From a virus: a DNA stretch of 20,617 nucleotides. The DNA lies in the IMG/VR virus record IMGVR_UViG_3300025127_005969, positions 1 through 20,617 of that record; one strand, written 5' to 3'. Both the position numbers and the translations under genes were made by a program. The notes below the pieces were generated by a model. That model had not been told where the DNA came from. It made no database searches and saw only the letters and a program-made list of their open reading frames with translations. Of the stretch, positions 2,579 through 12,054 are shown one piece after another. Every line of letters begins with the position of its first letter. Positions within the stretch are counted from its first letter, which is position 1.

Positions 2579-3383
2579 TTTCATCCTTTTTTACATAAAC
2601 AACACGGTTTTGACTCCACTTCTCTTCAATCTTTTCACTATCATCTACCAAGAAGGTATCATCTAAAGCACCTACACATTGTTTGTGCTTGAATGCGTTT
2701 TCTTCAGAGTCAATGTTCCTAACAATGTAAGTGTATTGTGATTGCGTGATCACTTTATTCACATACATCAACTGAGTTTTTAGGTCACATTCAGATAGAG
2801 AGTTGACTGCGATAGTCAAATCAATTCTATCACCAAAGTCATAATTTTCAACTTCAGTGCAAGGTAATGTTATAATTTTACCACTCTTTCCAATTTCTTT
2901 CAAGTACCTATCTGCCAACTTACATGCTTCAGGAGTATCAATCAAAATATACTTCTCAAAATTATCTGATAATTCATGAAGCATACAAGCAACACCACCA
3001 TATCCTCCACCAATTTCTACGATAGTCTGAACACTAGAGTTAGACCCAATAAAATTCATAACATCTAACATGTTATATGAATTTTTTAATGTGGCAGAAG
3101 AGCACTTACCAAATTCAAATTCATACTGTTTAGGTTTGCAATAAGGTTCATTTACTAGGAACTTATCTACGTTATCTCTCCAAATATCATAGAGAGGGTG
3201 AGTCATGATTTTACTATAGTAATAATCAGCTACCTCTCTAGGTCCACCCTCAAGAATCTTAGTGTAGTCAGGATCAATTTTAAATGTAGAAAATGCTTCG
3301 TCATCTTCTGCTGCTTTCAGACAAGCAGCATTGTATTTTTCATTGTTGTTGGAGTTGATTGTCCAACCATAATCTTCATTCAT
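2571..3383 (-). CDS. Putative sugar O-methyltransferase (SAM-dependent)
   Basis: A 270-residue protein resembling the 'putative sugar O-methyltransferase' family found in bacterial and phage glycan clusters. The glycine-rich SAM motif I is VEIGGGYGG (residues 122-130), followed by YILIDTPEACKLADRYL, whose Asp would contact the SAM ribose. Before it lie CSSATLKNSYNMLDVMNFI, typical of the family, and an N-terminal helical cap. The predicted role is methylation of a hydroxyl on a sugar or glycan. The start is ATG at 3381-3383, preceded by GAGGAG 13 bases away and overlapping the upstream SDR gene by 8 bases; the TTG seven codons earlier would consume this ribosome-binding site. The downstream gene overlaps its end by 8 bases. 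The class is well supported; the methylated position is unknown. Confidence 0.8.
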   Translation of the reverse strand: MNEDYGWTINSNNNEKYNAACLKAAEDDEAFSTFKIDPDYTKILEGGPREVADYYYSKIMTHPLYDIWRDNVDKFLVNEPYCKPKQYEFEFGKCSSATLKNSYNMLDVMNFIGSNSSVQTIVEIGGGYGGVACMLHELSDNFEKYILIDTPEACKLADRYLKEIGKSGKIITLPCTEVENYDFGDRIDLTIAVNSLSECDLKTQLMYVNKVITQSQYTYIVRNIDSEENAFKHKQCVGALDDTFLVDDSEKIEEKWSQNRVVYVKKDENG

Positions 3384-4227
3384 AATTTTTTTTAATCTCC
3401 TCAAATACTTTTTCTATTCCATCCTCAATGGATGTTTTTGCTTTCCACCATTTTCTAATAAATGGGTTTGCTTCATTACGAAGATCCTTTTGCACTTCGT
3501 CCTTCGTTTGTGCTTTCTCAACCGAGACAGTCTTGCCTTCGGCTTTGAATATACCTTGTATGATTTTCGCAATTTCCAATATAGTTGTAGAGCGAAAAGA
3601 AGTAATATGAAGCTCACTATCAGAAGTGAACTCACTATACTCCAACATAACTTGCTCAAGCGCTTCGCAACAATCTTCAGCATATAAAAATTCCCTTTGT
3701 TCTGTTCCGTCTGTCATCATATTTATGACACCAGTTTCAAACCCCTTATGGATGAAATCCGTAATAACATGTGCTTTCTCCATGTCCTTTTCAATTCCAT
3801 ATACATTCCAGAACTTAACAATCAACCCACCAAGAGACTTGGTATAAAGTTCACCAACTCTTTTCATCACACCATAGGGAGAGTAAGACATATTACTCAT
3901 TTGAGATGATGCAAATAGAAATGGTTTTTTATATTCACTCAAATATCCAAATGCATTTGCCATCATTCGAGTGTTGTTATCTATAAACTTAAAAGTATGT
4001 TGATACTTCTTGAGATAATGTGATCCACCTACATCAAAAGCAAGAAAGAAAATAAAATCAGAATCCATAATTAAATTTCTTAAAAATGGATTTGGAATAT
4101 GTGTCATGTCTTCATGTTGACCATTTGCAATATCAAACTCTCTTACAAGATATCCTTTCTTTGTAAGATATTGTGTCAGATATGCACCTATTTGTCCTGA
4201 AGATCCAAGTATTGTTATTCTATTCAT
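3376..4227 (-). CDS. NAD-dependent epimerase/dehydratase (extended SDR)
   Basis: A 283-residue extended short-chain dehydrogenase. The Rossmann motif is G8-S-S-G11-Q-I-G14 at the N-terminus. The active site shows S107/S108 (FLFASSQMSN) and the catalytic pair Y118-x3-K122 (SPYGVMK). A KFWNVYG segment and an EQREFLYAEDCCEAL segment fit the substrate-binding half of nucleotide-sugar epimerases and reductases. It follows the RfbH-type dehydrase gene directly, overlapping it by 8 bases, so it may reduce or epimerise the product of that enzyme, as the reductases of 3,6-dideoxyhexose pathways do. I chose the ATG at 4225-4227 over the TTG two codons upstream because it gives the 8-base overlap common in this operon. 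The fold is sure; substrate is not. Confidence 0.85.
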   Translation of the reverse strand: MNRITILGSSGQIGAYLTQYLTKKGYLVREFDIANGQHEDMTHIPNPFLRNLIMDSDFIFFLAFDVGGSHYLKKYQHTFKFIDNNTRMMANAFGYLSEYKKPFLFASSQMSNMSYSPYGVMKRVGELYTKSLGGLIVKFWNVYGIEKDMEKAHVITDFIHKGFETGVINMMTDGTEQREFLYAEDCCEALEQVMLEYSEFTSDSELHITSFRSTTILEIAKIIQGIFKAEGKTVSVEKAQTKDEVQKDLRNEANPFIRKWWKAKTSIEDGIEKVFEEIKKNYE

Positions 4228-5521
4228 TTTCAAAACTTGTAACTACTGAATCAACATAATCAATCATCTCCTCAGTAATTGTAGGAGAACAACCCACAAA
4301 GAATACCTTGTCTAATACTTGATTTGCTTTTGGATATTTAGATGCATCACCAAGGTGACGATAACCAGGATGCTGAAGAATATTACCAGCAAAATAATTT
4401 CTAGTTTGAACTCTATTATCTTCCAGATGCTTAACTAGTGCTGTCTTTTGTTTCTTGTCTCTACAAACAACAGGAACACCAAACCAACTAGTCTCTGAAT
4501 CTTCTAGTTCATTAACAGTACGGAGACCATCAACTTTATTGAAGATACTATCTAAACTTGCTTTGTTGAATCTACGAATCTTGTGGATATCATTAAACTT
4601 CTTAAGTTGAACAGAACCAACTGCACCTTGTAGATCAAGTGGTTTCAAATTATAACCTGCAACACCAAACACATACTTATGATCTACAGTACCAATATCA
4701 TCACCCAACCAATTATCAAATCGTTTACCACATACACCATTAGGAAGTTTATTCTGAGAACCAACACACCAACAACCACGACCCCACCATGCAAAACTAC
4801 GGGCAAGATCAACAATATCAGGGATGTTAGAAGAAACCATACCACCTTCCATAGTAGAAATGTGGTGAGCAGGATAGAAAGAACAAGATGCTGCAACAGA
4901 GCATGATGTTAGGTAGTTACCTTTGTACTTACTTCCAAGAGAATCACAGTTATCAGAAATCAACTGAAGTTGGTTTGTCTCACAAATGTCAAGTAACCAT
5001 TCAAGATCATAAGAGTTACCTAGAACTGGTGAAGAAAATACTGCTCTGGTTTTTTCAGTAATTTTGCCTGAGATCTGTTCTATATCCCAGTTAAGATCTT
5101 TCCAATCAATATCAACAAAGACAGGTTTTAGATTGTTTTGAATAATAGGTGCAATGGTAGTTGCAAATCCACAACAACATACAATAATCTCATCACCATC
5201 TTGCCAACCATAATACTTCTTGAGTGCAGCAAGCATCACAAGATTAGCAGAACTACCAGAGTTTACCATGATAGACTTATCAAATCTAAACTTCTTAGAA
5301 AACTCTTTTTCAAACTTATTAACTTTTTCACCAGCAGGTAACCACTTACCTTTCAGTATTGCTTCAATAATCGTAGCTGGTTCTTCATCATCCCAATAAG
5401 GACCGCTATAATAAACAGTATCTTTTGTAGGATCAAATGATTTCTTATTGGCAAGATATGGGAAGAGGTCTAGGTCACGTTCCTTAGCCGTAGAAATAAA
5501 ATTTTTAATCAGATCTTGCAT
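4220..5521 (-). CDS. rfbH: RfbH-type CDP-6-deoxy-hexulose 3-dehydrase (PLP and [2Fe-2S])
   Basis: A 433-residue DegT/DnrJ/EryC1/StrS-fold protein of the RfbH (E1) branch, which removes the C3 hydroxyl of an NDP-4-keto-6-deoxyhexose on the way to 3,6-dideoxysugars. The usual PLP lysine is replaced by His: SFYPAHH at residues 214-220 places it at 219/220, as in E1. The [2Fe-2S] cysteines of E1 (published pattern C-x57-C-x1-C-x7-C) appear as C192, C250, C252 and C264, so the first two spacings are exact and the last is x11. Other family landmarks are NSGSSAN (87-93), GRGCWC, CGKRF, DHKY and GYNLKPLDLQGAVG. A partner reductase (E3/AscD type) is not in the window; a host or phage ferredoxin might serve. 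The gene overlaps its upstream SDR neighbour by 13 bases. Confidence 0.88.
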   Translation of the reverse strand: MQDLIKNFISTAKERDLDLFPYLANKKSFDPTKDTVYYSGPYWDDEEPATIIEAILKGKWLPAGEKVNKFEKEFSKKFRFDKSIMVNSGSSANLVMLAALKKYYGWQDGDEIIVCCCGFATTIAPIIQNNLKPVFVDIDWKDLNWDIEQISGKITEKTRAVFSSPVLGNSYDLEWLLDICETNQLQLISDNCDSLGSKYKGNYLTSCSVAASCSFYPAHHISTMEGGMVSSNIPDIVDLARSFAWWGRGCWCVGSQNKLPNGVCGKRFDNWLGDDIGTVDHKYVFGVAGYNLKPLDLQGAVGSVQLKKFNDIHKIRRFNKASLDSIFNKVDGLRTVNELEDSETSWFGVPVVCRDKKQKTALVKHLEDNRVQTRNYFAGNILQHPGYRHLGDASKYPKANQVLDKVFFVGCSPTITEEMIDYVDSVVTSFENE

Positions 5522-6360
5522 AGTTGTTTAATCAAATCATCAAGAGAAATCTTTTGTTCAAAACCAAGAGATTTTAGTTTAGTAGTATCCATCCAAAAGT
5601 CTTTTGTCTGAACAACAGAGTGAAACTTAGGAGATGGTACAGAAACTATTTCAGAAGGAGAGTTTAAAAGTTCTTTTGCTTTGTTAATTATATCACCAAC
5701 CTTAGTAGGTTGTCCACTTCCAATATTATAAATCTGGTTTTTCTCTCCTTTAGTAATCACCAGATCAATTGCTCTACAAACATCTTGTACATGTAAGATA
5801 TCTCTAATATCTGTTCCTTCATTGTACAGTCTAATTGGTTGACCATCTCTCATATGTTGAATCATCTGTGTGATTGCATTTTTCTGTAGTGATGCATCAC
5901 GGTCATTATCACCTAGAACATTACATAACCTAAGAATTCTATACTTAACTCCAAAGGTTTCACAAAAAGAAATGATTAGTTGTTCTGCTGCTCTTTTTGT
6001 AATGGAGTAGAACCCTCTTGGATCACATTGTCCGTCCTCGGAAACTGGATTACTATTTGCATCACCGTATACAAACCAAGAACTAATAAAATTAAGCGTA
6101 ATGTCTTCATGATTGTCAAATCTACGATCTCTAACTTCTACAACTCGATCAAGAACTTCAGTGAGAACCAAAAGGTTACTCTTTACATCCTCTGTAATTT
6201 CTTTAAACACATGATAATTATGTGTTGTACTAATAAAATATAGAATGTCCCTGTCCATTGGAGTCCTCTGTCCTCTATCAATGGGACGGGATTTTTCAGG
6301 AAACATATTACAAAAAGTGCGACCAATATATCCAGTCGCACCATACACAGATAAACTCAA
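5509..6360 (-). CDS. NAD-dependent nucleotide-sugar epimerase/reductase (extended SDR), TTG start
   Basis: A 283-residue extended short-chain dehydrogenase. Visible are G7-A-T-G10-Y-I-G13 in the Rossmann fold, FISSWFVYGD (residues 91-100) supplying the active-site Ser, and Y118-x3-K122 (GFYSITK). A LRLCNVLGDND segment and GTDIRDILHVQDV follow, and IYNIGSGQPTKVGDI is typical of sugar epimerases. I place the start at TTG 6358-6360 because a perfect GGAGG lies 5 bases upstream; the TTG four codons earlier would lie on top of that site. It starts 1 base after the stop of the GDP-mannose epimerase-type gene and overlaps the RfbH gene by 13 bases. It could act as the C4 reductase or epimerase of a 3,6-dideoxysugar route; that is inferred from context. 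Confidence 0.83.
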   Translation of the reverse strand: MSLSVYGATGYIGRTFCNMFPEKSRPIDRGQRTPMDRDILYFISTTHNYHVFKEITEDVKSNLLVLTEVLDRVVEVRDRRFDNHEDITLNFISSWFVYGDANSNPVSEDGQCDPRGFYSITKRAAEQLIISFCETFGVKYRILRLCNVLGDNDRDASLQKNAITQMIQHMRDGQPIRLYNEGTDIRDILHVQDVCRAIDLVITKGEKNQIYNIGSGQPTKVGDIINKAKELLNSPSEIVSVPSPKFHSVVQTKDFWMDTTKLKSLGFEQKISLDDLIKQLCKI

Positions 6361-6361
6361 A

Positions 6362-7507
6362 TCAACCTCCAAATAATGATTCTGCTAATTTTATTTCTTC
6401 TTCAATAGTTGTAACTTCACCTAACTTAATTTGTTCTGAAATCCATTCATATGTCTTACGTATACCTTCTTCTAAGGTCTGCTCATAATCCCATCCCAAC
6501 TTCTCTCTTATAAGATCATTGTTTGAGTTACGACCACGGACACCAAGGGGTGCATCTAAATTATGTCTACTTTGAACTACCTTACCTGATACCTTAGCAG
6601 CAGTTTCAACTAACTGATTAATTGTAACCATCTCCTCTGAACCTATGTTAAAAGGTCCTAAGGAATCAGAGTTCATTAATCTGAAAGTTGCTTCGATGCA
6701 TTCATCAATGTACAAGAAGGAACGAGTCTGTAAGCCGTCTCCCCACACCTCGATTGATCCACCCGTGATCGGGAGAAGAGCAACTTTGCGACAGATTGCT
6801 GCTGGTGCCTTTTCTCTTCCTCCATCCCACGTTCCTTCTGGTCCGAAGATGTTATGGTAACGAGCAATCCTAATAGGAATACCGTGGTTACGATTATAAG
6901 CGAGATATAACCTCTCTGAGAAAAGTTTTTCCCATCCATATTCGGAATCTGGGGCAGCAGGGTAAGCGGATTCTTCACGGCAATCGGGGTTGTTAGGGTC
7001 TAGTTGGTTATACTCTGGATACATGCAAGCAGAACCAGAGTAGAAAATCTTAGTTGGTTGATCCAACTTAGGGCGATTACAAACAGTATAGGATTTTACT
7101 ATACCATCAAAGGTTTCGTTTAATTTACGGACACCTTCAAGTACATTTAGGTTAATAGTAACAGAGTTATGCATAATCTCTGCATCATTCTCTCCAGTGA
7201 ATACAAAACCTGCACCACCCATGTCAGCAGCAAACTGGTATATCTCATCAAATGGTAGGATGTATTGATAAGGAACTGAGTTATAATAGTTACCTTGTTC
7301 TCCTTTGAACTCAAGAATAGAATTTACGAATGCAGTACTACGAAGATCTCCACAAACAAATTCATTTGCTTCTGTGTTAGAAAACTCAGGGTATTTAAGG
7401 TCTACACCTCTTACCCAATAACCTTCTTTACGCAGTCTCTTTACCATATGACTGCCAATAAAACCACCTGCACCTAATACCAGTGCGGTCTTCTTGTATT
7501 CGCTCAT
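6362..7507 (-). CDS. GDP-mannose 3,5-epimerase-like SDR
   Basis: A 381-residue extended SDR closely patterned on plant-type GDP-mannose 3,5-epimerase, which turns GDP-D-mannose into GDP-L-galactose (and GDP-L-gulose). The Rossmann motif is G12-A-G-G15-F-I-G18. Then come AADMGGAGFV (93-102), SGSACMYPE (157-165), YGWEK with Y190 and K194, and GTWDGGREKAPAAICRK (225-241). C161, Y190 and K233 have the same separations (29 and 72 residues) as C145, Y174 and K217 of the Arabidopsis enzyme, the cysteine and lysine being its acid/base pair. WGDGLQTRSFLYIDEC also matches. The length fits the family. This is the first gene after a terminator and a strong sigma70-type promoter, so it heads the operon running to the left edge. 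Substrate might vary, but the catalytic set is intact. Confidence 0.87.
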   Translation of the reverse strand: MSEYKKTALVLGAGGFIGSHMVKRLRKEGYWVRGVDLKYPEFSNTEANEFVCGDLRSTAFVNSILEFKGEQGNYYNSVPYQYILPFDEIYQFAADMGGAGFVFTGENDAEIMHNSVTINLNVLEGVRKLNETFDGIVKSYTVCNRPKLDQPTKIFYSGSACMYPEYNQLDPNNPDCREESAYPAAPDSEYGWEKLFSERLYLAYNRNHGIPIRIARYHNIFGPEGTWDGGREKAPAAICRKVALLPITGGSIEVWGDGLQTRSFLYIDECIEATFRLMNSDSLGPFNIGSEEMVTINQLVETAAKVSGKVVQSRHNLDAPLGVRGRNSNNDLIREKLGWDYEQTLEEGIRKTYEWISEQIKLGEVTTIEEEIKLAESLFGG

Positions 7508-8539: not shown

Positions 8540-9508
8540 TCATTTAAGTGGCACATTAATAGTACCGTAGTAACGAGACAGATACCATTGTATTGTAGAG
8601 TTAATATTTTCTAACCATTTGTCACCAGGTTTCCAACCTATTGCATTAGTAAGTTTAGAATGATCCATGGCATAGCGTTTATCATGACCAGGTCGATCAG
8701 CAGTAACACCAATAAGATCATGTGACTTACCTAGGATATCTAATATATCTTTTACAACATCCTTATTTTTCTTCTCACATGAACCACCAATATTAAATGT
8801 ATCATTCATGATACCTTGTTCATATAACATCCAGATTGCTTCACAATGGTCTTTGACATATAACCAATCTCTGATCTGATCTCCACCACCATGCATGTAG
8901 GTAGTTCTATCATTAATAGCATTTGTGATAGTAAGAGGAATCAGTTTCTCAGGATGTTGTCTAGGTCCATAATTATTAGAACAGTTTGTTATGAGATATG
9001 GAACCCCATAAGTATTATGCCATGCTTTAACAAAATAATCTGACGCTGCTTTACTGGCAGAGTATGGATTTCTAGGATTGTATAGGGTTTCTTCTGTAAA
9101 TATATTTGGGTCATCGTATTCAAGTGATCCAAATACTTCATCAGTAGAGATATGATGGAACTTGTCTACAACATCTCTACTAGCATTCAATAAATTAATT
9201 GTACCTAAAATATTTGCCTGAATAAATGGTCGATAATTTTTAATAGAATTATCTACATGACTCTCTGCAGCAAAATGAAAGACTAGATTAGGTTTATATG
9301 AAACAAATAATTCATCAACCGCTTGTTCATCAGCAATATCAATCTCAATAAACTTGACTCTTTTATTATCAATCAGTTTATCAATAAATTTGATATCAGA
9401 TGCGTAAGTAAGATTGTCTACAATAACAATCTCGTCATCTGTTTTCTTGTGAATGTAATGTAAAAAATTACTGCCTATAAAACCAGCAGCACCTGTAACT
9501 AAAATCAT
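8540..9508 (-). CDS. rmlB: NDP-glucose 4,6-dehydratase (RmlB type)
   Basis: A 322-residue extended SDR of the dTDP-glucose 4,6-dehydratase type, making the 4-keto-6-deoxy intermediate from an NDP-glucose. Landmarks: T5-G6-A-A-G9-F-I-G12 at the NAD site, FHFAAESHVDNSI (77-89), the catalytic trio STDEVFG (121-127, with T122, D123, E124), Y149-x3-K153 (NPYSASK), and NCSNNYGPRQHPEKLIP, which is diagnostic for the group. GGGDQIRDWLYVKDHCEA is also standard. Length fits the family. Whether it acts on dTDP- or CDP-glucose cannot be told from sequence. Its product class is what the RfbH-type enzyme at 4220-5521 consumes, although no nucleotidyltransferase to make the substrate lies in the window. The start overlaps the oxygenase gene upstream by 4 bases (ATGA). 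Confidence 0.9.
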   Translation of the reverse strand: MILVTGAAGFIGSNFLHYIHKKTDDEIVIVDNLTYASDIKFIDKLIDNKRVKFIEIDIADEQAVDELFVSYKPNLVFHFAAESHVDNSIKNYRPFIQANILGTINLLNASRDVVDKFHHISTDEVFGSLEYDDPNIFTEETLYNPRNPYSASKAASDYFVKAWHNTYGVPYLITNCSNNYGPRQHPEKLIPLTITNAINDRTTYMHGGGDQIRDWLYVKDHCEAIWMLYEQGIMNDTFNIGGSCEKKNKDVVKDILDILGKSHDLIGVTADRPGHDKRYAMDHSKLTNAIGWKPGDKWLENINSTIQWYLSRYYGTINVPLK

Positions 9509-10224
9509 TTTTGGAATTGGTTAATATACTCTTGGTAGTCAGCACCATCAGGAATATCTGCTTTACCATCTTTAATTGCTTGGTGCAACCATGTTGTAAT
9601 GACATACTTACACCCACCAATTGGTTGTCTTCCTTTATGTTGCCAATGATGACCTGATGGGAAAAATGCAATCTTTCCTGTTTTGGGTGTTATTTTGTGC
9701 CAATAGAAATCAGTTTCTCCTTCTTCAAATTCATCATTAAGATATATTAGACAACTGAATGCTCTTTGTCTACTTTTTCTATCATCATCCAATCGATCAA
9801 AGTGCCATTCAAAAAAACCATCATCAGCATCATACTTTACAATAGTATATCCCTCATCTTCATACACAAAGTTTTCAAGTAAATTTGTTGGAACATCTAA
9901 ATGTCTATAACCTGGCATATCTTTATCTTGATTTTTCTGCCATTCATCATCAAACATTTTACCAATGTCCCAATGATATTGGGCAAAGTACTGATTAATT
10001 TTTTGTTCAATTAAAGCATCAATTGGAACATCAAAAGGTATTTGTAGTTGATTAGACTTTCTGCCCTGTACATCAACTGAGTGTAGTGTAGCATGATTTT
10101 GAGCAGAGTAAACCTGAGAAGCAGCAACTTGATCTAAATTGTCTTCATAAAATTCAATGATTAAATCACATTCATCTTTTGTAAATGCAACATACTCTTT
10201 TATATAATCACTTAATTGGTTCAT
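9505..10224 (-). CDS. 2OG-Fe(II) oxygenase (prolyl 4-hydroxylase-like)
   Basis: A 239-residue protein whose C-terminal half is a 2-oxoglutarate/Fe(II) dioxygenase domain. Iron ligands are H141-x-D143 (EWHFD) and H196 (HHWQHKG), and K206 in GGCKYVITTWL would bind the 2OG carboxylate, ten residues on. The EEGETDFYW segment (167-175) and KIAFFPSGHHWQHKG match the family's core strands. The N-terminal 115 residues are less distinctive. Such enzymes are common in T4-like cyanophages; they hydroxylate protein side chains, and other members act on small molecules or nucleic acid bases. The gene starts within the stop of the cupin gene (ATGA) and ends within the start of the RmlB-type gene, so it is translated with sugar enzymes. 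The target is unknown; a glycan or virion protein is possible. Confidence 0.85.
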   Translation of the reverse strand: MNQLSDYIKEYVAFTKDECDLIIEFYEDNLDQVAASQVYSAQNHATLHSVDVQGRKSNQLQIPFDVPIDALIEQKINQYFAQYHWDIGKMFDDEWQKNQDKDMPGYRHLDVPTNLLENFVYEDEGYTIVKYDADDGFFEWHFDRLDDDRKSRQRAFSCLIYLNDEFEEGETDFYWHKITPKTGKIAFFPSGHHWQHKGRQPIGGCKYVITTWLHQAIKDGKADIPDGADYQEYINQFQK

Positions 10225-10951: not shown

Positions 10952-11097
10952 CTTTGCATATGTTGTATCATTTTTTCAATTTCGTTTAAACTATCTCTAA
11001 GTTCTGTGTTTTGTCCTGATGCAGAATCTAATTTTTCATCTACCAAATCCCATCTCCACTTCTTCATACTCTTAGAATACCATAGTTTAACGTTCAT
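10948..11097 (-). CDS. Microprotein of 49 aa (MNVKLWYSK...)
   Basis: The ATG at 11095-11097 follows AGGAGG by 2 bases, a strong ribosome-binding site placed over the end of the upstream oxygenase gene; the two genes overlap by 11 bases. The product begins MNVKLWYSKSMKKWRWDLVD and continues EKLDSASGQNTELRDSLNEI, a basic, Trp-rich head followed by a helical Leu/Ile-patterned tail. I believe similar small proteins recur in T4-like cyanophages but cannot name a function. Its stop codon lies in the -35 box of the next promoter, so it is probably the last gene of the nrd-side transcript. Confidence 0.65.
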   Translation of the reverse strand: MNVKLWYSKSMKKWRWDLVDEKLDSASGQNTELRDSLNEIEKMIQHMQS

Positions 11098-11617
11098 GCT
11101 CCTCCTCGTTTGTTCCCCAGATCTGAATAGTATACCTAAAATCAGTTGAATAAGGTGACAGTGGTGTTACCATATGTGATTCATGATTATCATTCAAAAC
11201 CATTGTATTACAATTTGGTAATAAAGCAGACCACTCATGTGCAGATCCTGAAGATTCCTTCTCTTTATATAGAAAAATACCACCATTCTCAGGTACCCAT
11301 GTATCATTTAGATATATTGTTGCACCAAATACTTTATCATGATCATCATGAACAGCAATACCAGAAAGTTGTTGCCAAATATAGTATTGTAAATAGTACA
11401 CTTTACATTCTGGTAGAAATAATTGAATCTCTTTTAAAATTCTTTCTTTCATTTCTCCAACAATAGTTCTTGATAAACAATTTGAGAAGTAACCTTTTGT
11501 CAATTCAGTTGGCCAAGCAAAACTACCTTTCCATGCTTCTTCATTATGTGCTTCAGACACGTCCATACGAATGTCTTGAAGTAATTTATCTGTCAATACT
11601 CTGTCAAAATGTTTCAT
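11087..11617 (-). CDS. 2OG-Fe(II) oxygenase family protein
   Basis: A 176-residue dioxygenase of the compact type common in marine phages. The iron ligands are H90-x-D92 (IAVHDDHDK) and H148 (NHESHMVTPL), and R161 (DFRYTIQIW) lies 13 residues later to bind 2-oxoglutarate. Between them are GATIYLND (98-105) and PENGGIFLYKEK, the family core strands, and LLPNCNTMVLNDN. There is almost no N-terminal extension. It is not a close copy of the larger oxygenase at 9505-10224, so the two probably differ in target. It overlaps the GIY-YIG-like gene by 4 bases (ATGA) and the 49-aa gene by 11. Its family is clear; whether it modifies protein, glycan or nucleotide is unknown. Confidence 0.83.
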   Translation of the reverse strand: MKHFDRVLTDKLLQDIRMDVSEAHNEEAWKGSFAWPTELTKGYFSNCLSRTIVGEMKERILKEIQLFLPECKVYYLQYYIWQQLSGIAVHDDHDKVFGATIYLNDTWVPENGGIFLYKEKESSGSAHEWSALLPNCNTMVLNDNHESHMVTPLSPYSTDFRYTIQIWGTNEEEHER

Positions 11618-12054
11618 TCAAAATTACCATAATCTTTTTTCATGTAACGTCCAAGGATGTTGCTATTGTAATACTTTGGTGTTCCATCGTCAAGTGCTTC
11701 TGTCAAGACATCATTAAGAAATAGTTGTCTTGTCTCTTCGTAATTTACTTTTCCAAGGGTTGCGTGGAGGGATATGATTTCTCTTCGGAAATTATCTTTA
11801 CCGTATTCTTTAACGTCTGATTTAAGTTCGTCAGAGCTTCCGTAATACCGCTTCCAGTCAGACTCTGACGTAACACGTCGCTTGCCTCCTTTAGGTTTTC
11901 GTTTCTGTACGAAGTACTTTCTTCCGATGTATTGCTTACCGTTCTTTGTATTTGTAATCCTGTAGACAAAACCGAAGAAGTCGCCAATATCATCAGAAGA
12001 GAAAGGTTTACCCTCATATAACCAGGGGTTTTCGTAAACTCTTCCTTCAACCAT
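11614..12054 (-). CDS. Putative GIY-YIG-type endonuclease
   Basis: A 146-residue protein with a GIY-YIG-like core: FVY at residues 29-31 and YIG at 42-44 separated by ten residues, as in the family, then R45 and K46. SDWKRYYGSSDELKSDV (65-81), DNFRREIISL and YEETRQLFLNDVL follow, with E106/E107 as candidate metal ligands. The first motif is altered (F-V-Y for G-I-Y), so activity is not certain. In T4-like phages GIY-YIG proteins include free-standing Seg homing enzymes, and endonuclease II, which degrades host DNA and lies in the nrd region of T4. No DNA-binding tail is apparent. It starts 4 bases after the 81-aa gene and ends in an ATGA overlap with the oxygenase gene. Confidence 0.68.
   Translation of the reverse strand: MVEGRVYENPWLYEGKPFSSDDIGDFFGFVYRITNTKNGKQYIGRKYFVQKRKPKGGKRRVTSESDWKRYYGSSDELKSDVKEYGKDNFRREIISLHATLGKVNYEETRQLFLNDVLTEALDDGTPKYYNSNILGRYMKKDYGNFE

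Follow-up and report, generated by a model that had tools for sequence, protein, structure and literature searches.

A cyanophage-encoded, probable E1-type sugar-nucleotide 3-dehydrase from a clade with a long final cysteine loop

Introduction

The stretch of viral DNA analyzed here (the window, 20,617 nucleotides; IMG/VR record IMGVR_UViG_3300025127_005969) raises the question of what a phage might do with an RfbH-like sugar-nucleotide 3-dehydrase, and of where such an enzyme would obtain its electrons. Few members of the Fe-S/PMP radical 3-dehydrases have been studied. A first-pass annotation of the window had proposed a phage-encoded RfbH in which a histidine replaces the PLP lysine and the spacing of the cluster cysteines is altered, with no dedicated E3 reductase alongside. 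Viral genes annotated as ascC, ddhC or rfbH already figure in a list of metabolic genes carried by marine viruses (PMC10653327), and large LPS clusters of unknown function are known in cyanophages (PMC3037559), for which protection against other phages has been suggested (PMC2984593). In the literature searched, we found no description of the clade to which the window enzyme belongs, of its SDR partner or of the absence of E3.

Results

The gene and its product

The window is a genome fragment of a cyanomyovirus, and its ribonucleotide reductase-primase block shares about 70-71% DNA identity with S-SKS1, SynMITS9220M01 and others. Bacterial contamination was discarded, since the ribonucleotide reductase, the primase and the DNA similarity are all cyanomyoviral. 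A GIY-YIG SegE-like homing endonuclease (11614-12054, minus strand) lies right after the ribonucleotide reductase genes. The 3-dehydrase gene (Table 1), for which the first-pass annotation had given no strand, starts with ATG on the minus strand, and the plus strand over the same interval contains many stops. Compared with the 84%-identical L009, it shows a dN of 0.10 and a dS of 1.00, and hence the gene is under purifying selection.

Table 1. Positions of the 3-dehydrase, its key residues and related genes (window coordinates unless a locus is given)
Feature	Position	Strand	Basis or remark
E1-type (His, four-Cys) sugar-nucleotide 3-dehydrase, x11 clade, 433 aa	4220..5521	minus	ORF, family, alignment, fold
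Codon of H219, where the PLP lysine would be	4865..4867	minus	aligns with E1 H220; invariant
Codon of C192, first predicted Fe-S ligand	4946..4948	minus	invariant; aligns with Cys of the E1 DCCD stretch
C250-x1-C252-x11-C264, predicted Fe-S ligands and long final loop	4730..4774	minus	alignment
SDR-A, SDR partner; overlaps the 3-dehydrase start by a few bases	5509..6372	minus	profile, motif reading
SDR-B, directly downstream of the 3-dehydrase	3376..4233	minus	profile searches
RmlB, dTDP-glucose 4,6-dehydratase	8540..9508	minus	TIGR01181, 406.5 bits (cut-off 365.1)
x11 3-dehydrase (C-x1-C-x11-C), 642-kb uncultured phage LR756502.1	L159:5001-6215		neighbors: SDR, glycosyltransferase-like genes

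The protein belongs to Pfam family PF01041 (DegT/AAT fold), and its top NCBIfam match is RfbH, at 368.6 bits, below the cut-off of 423; a member of the same clade, L014, scores 375.6 bits against this profile. By sequence, the closest solved structures are the E1 enzyme of Yersinia pseudotuberculosis (3bcx; 35% identity) and its H220K mutant (3bb8). An AlphaFold2 model built from 64 relatives (mean pLDDT 87.8, with values of 51-60 in a large part of the loop region, about residues 245-290) retrieved E1 first in a fold search (Z 51.5 and 51.3, 404 residues), with ColD at Z 46.0 and the PLP-lysine aminotransferases ranking behind E1; a viral fold library returned only generic PLP enzymes.

Catalytic histidine and cluster cysteines

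H219 is identified as the catalytic histidine, equivalent to H220 of E1, because the corresponding stretch reads SFYPAHH in 3bcx and SFYPAKH in the H220K mutant 3bb8. The column holds histidine in 64 of 64 rows and no lysine, which bears out the proposed replacement of the PLP lysine and excludes the identification of the protein as a Lys aminotransferase; its best match is E1 and not an enzyme of that kind. The adjoining residue, H220 of the window protein, is slightly less conserved (threonine in L023).

Out of the 12 cysteines in the protein, only C192, C250, C252 and C264 are invariant among 64 homologues, down to 36% identity. They align with the four cysteines of E1 and are placed as the first-pass annotation had claimed, in the pattern C-x57-C-x1-C-x11-C; in the same alignment the last spacing of E1 is x7, so that the window enzyme has an insertion of four residues. 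The pattern is not due to chance, as these are the sole invariant cysteines of the 12 and the spacing is identical in every viral relative read across the motif. A ColD-type identity was discarded because all four cluster cysteines are present.

The same residues bear on whether the protein might be, despite its histidine and cluster, a dual enzyme of the SpnQ kind, acting mainly in C4 transamination as an amino-sugar synthase without a reductase. The DegT fold and the ability of SpnQ to transaminate without its reductase (PMC8987622) would fit such an activity, but H219 is invariant with no lysine at its column, and E1 and ColD show no transamination under the same conditions (PMC8987622), which makes this reading very improbable. 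From these comparisons, the window enzyme looks like a 3-dehydrase, remotely related to E1 and seemingly intact.

The long final loop

The final spacing was read in 108 rows, that of L051 being a different protein of its contig, and was found to be x7 in 70, x11 in 31, x9 in four and x10 in two. All the viral relatives read across the motif fall among the 31 x11 rows, together with three cellular sequences, two of them from single cells of a Nitrosomonadaceae (L032) and a Prochlorococcus (L033) and the third from a Nitrospirales MAG (L034). The x11 spacing is also present in three further picocyanobacterial genomes (four picocyanobacteria in all) and in a 642-kb uncultured phage. Bacteria outside the x11 clade have x7, and a few of them x9 or x10. 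A unique loop mutation or an assembly error can be discarded, given that every viral relative read across the motif has this spacing, as do cellular genomes.

When the loop residues were left out of the tree, the x11 sequences grouped in a single clade (support 100/99), sister to the one formed by E1 and the x7, x9 and x10 rows; the same grouping was obtained with the loop kept. The window enzyme falls outside the E1/RfbH clade, in this sister clade, and the x11 spacing is the mark of the whole clade, common to viruses and a few cells. Two earlier claims have to be adjusted in this regard. The final loop is indeed longer than in E1, but it is not specific to this enzyme, since the entire clade, cells included, has it; and the protein is indeed phage-encoded and, by sequence, of the E1 type, but the name RfbH is loose, considering its profile score below the cut-off and its position in a sister clade. 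The x9 and x10 rows take a more basal position than the x7 rows in the loop-removed tree, in a weakly supported order, suggesting that the short x7 loop of Yersinia E1 may be a derived state.

Gene neighborhood and sugar nucleotide

The gene lies in a sugar island that contains RmlB, a GDP-mannose 3,5-epimerase-like SDR, two further SDRs, glycosyltransferases and a sugar methyltransferase. Two 2OG-Fe(II) oxygenases are found at its edge (9505-10224 and 11087-11617, minus strand). SDR-A keeps the GxxGxxG and YxxxK motifs and has Ser-Trp-Phe where 4,6-dehydratases have Thr-Asp-Glu, the catalytic triad whose Asp-Glu is present in RmlB. Because SDR-A is without this Asp-Glu, a dehydratase is less probable, and SDR-A is likely an NDP-4-ketohexose reductase (4-ketoreductase) or epimerase.

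SDR-A abuts the 3-dehydrase in most viral loci, as well as in the Nitrosomonadaceae (L032), Prochlorococcus (L033) and picocyanobacterial (L157) sequences, and within the phage collection homologues of SDR-A (E<=1e-30) occur in all six records that encode a 3-dehydrase more than 60% identical, and in no others. In the viral sugar island of L012, and in a few other contigs of the group, a radical SAM/SPASM protein is encoded between the two genes (L012:2563-3417). Although it has been considered that the LPS clusters of cyanophages might be stuffer DNA (PMC3037559), the view of the 3-dehydrase gene as a mere passenger in a large phage genome is hardly credible in light of this strict linkage, the low dN/dS and the invariance of the catalytic and cluster residues across a deep clade.

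RmlB is the only 4,6-dehydratase over the cut-off in the window. Neither RfbF nor RfbG was found over the cut-off in 21 viral records, which, like the window itself, are mostly fragments, nor in the Prochlorococcus x11 genome. Since the setting is based on RmlB, with no RfbF or RfbG, a CDP-linked sugar is improbable, as judged from gene content, and the substrate would most likely be dTDP-4-keto-6-deoxyglucose made by the phage RmlB. In L014, L015 and L025 the genes follow the order nucleotidyltransferase, RmlB, RmlC, SDR-A and 3-dehydrase (families assigned for L014), an arrangement that resembles the ascarylose pathway on dTDP. RmlB is absent near some x11 genes (L019, L020 and L023). The Nitrosomonadaceae single-cell genome G019 carries a canonical RfbF-RfbG-RfbH(x7) operon and, at another place, a pair of SDR and x11 genes (L153, L154).

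Electron donor

An E3-type reductase needs an NAD_binding_1 domain. This domain, used as a proxy for E3, was found in none of 26 viral records (20, plus six more, among them the 642-kb phage and three complete x11 cyanophages), with positive controls; the window's own genome is a fragment. An E3-type reductase was not found in four complete x11 cyanophages, in the 642-kb phage or in 17 viral contigs.

A plant-type [2Fe-2S] ferredoxin is encoded by all four complete x11 cyanophages, by S-H68 and by three contigs; in the three contigs, S-H68 and RN05-S, its gene and that of the 3-dehydrase share a strand, the ferredoxin gene lying about 6-12 kb further downstream. The four complete phages do not count as independent cases, since they were isolated on one host and carry near-identical copies. 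The contigs nearest to the window, which are fragments of 18-35 kb, yielded no ferredoxin, and the 642-kb phage lacks a Fer2 ferredoxin as well as an E3-type reductase. In addition, petF is present in four of 16 reference cyanophages, irrespective of the 3-dehydrase (PMC3037559), and ACG-2014f encodes a ferredoxin too, although its 3-dehydrase is probably ColD-type. Given these last two occurrences, the presence of a phage ferredoxin is permissive rather than specific.

The host might provide an alternative, with the E1-type 3-dehydrase acting on a host-made CDP sugar and receiving its electrons, like canonical RfbH, via a reductase of the host, either E3-like or another flavoprotein. E1 is, after all, the closest characterized enzyme, the host genomes are partial, and the reductase does not need to be clustered, as illustrated by G019, which has one frame with both Fer2 and NAD_binding_1 and in whose canonical operon (L153) E3 does not adjoin RfbH. 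This explanation is nevertheless unlikely, since neither the viral records nor the x11 genome of Prochlorococcus gave RfbF or RfbG over the cut-off, and none of the four picocyanobacterial x11 genomes, which are incomplete, has Fer2 and NAD_binding_1 in one frame (three have one NAD_binding_1 protein and the fourth has none). A ferredoxin is the favored candidate for the electron source, as no E3-type reductase is encoded. SpnQ uses ferredoxin or flavodoxin instead of E3 (PMC8987622), and this precedent, together with phage petF and the lack of E3, makes a ferredoxin-fed reduction of the x11 enzyme plausible by analogy.

The length of the loop is not supported as a marker of ferredoxin use. 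The actinobacterial homologue L061, found in an apparent antibiotic cluster among EryCIII-type glycosyltransferases and which we infer to be SpnQ-like, has x7, indicating that loop length need not mark such use.

Discussion

A number of features relate the window enzyme to the three closest known systems. With the Yersinia E1 (AscC/DdhC/RfbH, the CDP-6-deoxy-L-threo-D-glycero-4-hexulose 3-dehydrase) it shares the fold, the catalytic histidine, the four cysteines and the x57 and x1 spacings, whereas it differs in its x11 loop, its overall sequence, its place in a sister clade and a setting with RmlB, without RfbF/RfbG or E3 alongside. SpnQ, the dTDP-4-keto-2,6-dideoxyglucose 3-dehydrase, known here by description (PMC8987622), is alike in its histidine and, by prediction, in PMP and [2Fe-2S] cluster, and probably also in the use of a dTDP sugar and ferredoxin. 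ColD, the GDP-4-keto-6-deoxymannose 3-dehydratase (2gms), has the same fold and histidine but works without an Fe-S cluster, by hydrolysis with a glutamate (PMC8987622); the presumed ColD-type genes of cyanophages S-CAM7 and ACG-2014f adjoin a GDP-mannose 4,6-dehydratase (Gmd), in contrast with the RmlB of the window.

The best overall explanation, which we consider fairly probable as a whole, is that the window encodes an E1-type NDP-4-keto-6-deoxyhexose 3-dehydrase of a separate clade, fed by ferredoxin, acting on a dTDP substrate and followed by SDR-A, in the service of glycan remodeling. The phage RmlB would supply dTDP-4-keto-6-deoxyglucose, with whose 4-keto group PMP would form a Schiff base. 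In line with the mechanism described for E1 and SpnQ (PMC8987622), H219 would then take a proton from PMP, with departure of the C3 hydroxyl, and the resulting glucoseen-PMP intermediate would be reduced by two single electrons through a [2Fe-2S] cluster, presumably held by C192, C250, C252 and C264. The electrons would come from a ferredoxin, either from the host or the phage petF product, itself reduced by photosystem I or FNR. SDR-A may subsequently reduce C4 to give a 3,6-dideoxyhexose, which the many glycosyltransferases of the island could use, thus remodeling the surface glycan of the infected cell. A more specific proposal is tentative: the locus may be a cyanophage dTDP counterpart of the ascarylose/paratose pathway, made of RmlB (with or without RmlC), the 3-dehydrase and SDR-A, in which ferredoxin electrons of photosynthetic origin are spent on the surface sugars of the infected cell.

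Two other cyanophage genes deserve mention. The product of S-CAM7 L160:3869-5002, labeled CDP-4-keto-6-deoxy-D-glucose-3-dehydrase, and that of ACG-2014f L165:2833-4026, labeled hypothetical, have the histidine, are without the GRxCxC...C cysteines and are encoded beside Gmd and an SDR, the latter being Fcl-like or another SDR. Judging from these residues and neighbors, both are probably of the ColD type and the S-CAM7 record is probably misnamed. As they look ColD-type, C3 deoxygenation in cyanophages appears to have two solutions, which suggests two mechanistically different enzymes, one of the Fe-S type and one of the ColD type, in these viruses.

The x11 clade represents a natural variant in loop length that retains all four cysteines, and can thus serve to test the role of the last loop and the docking of the reductant. 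If its members are driven by ferredoxin, photosynthetic electron flow would be linked to the remodeling of glycans by the phage.
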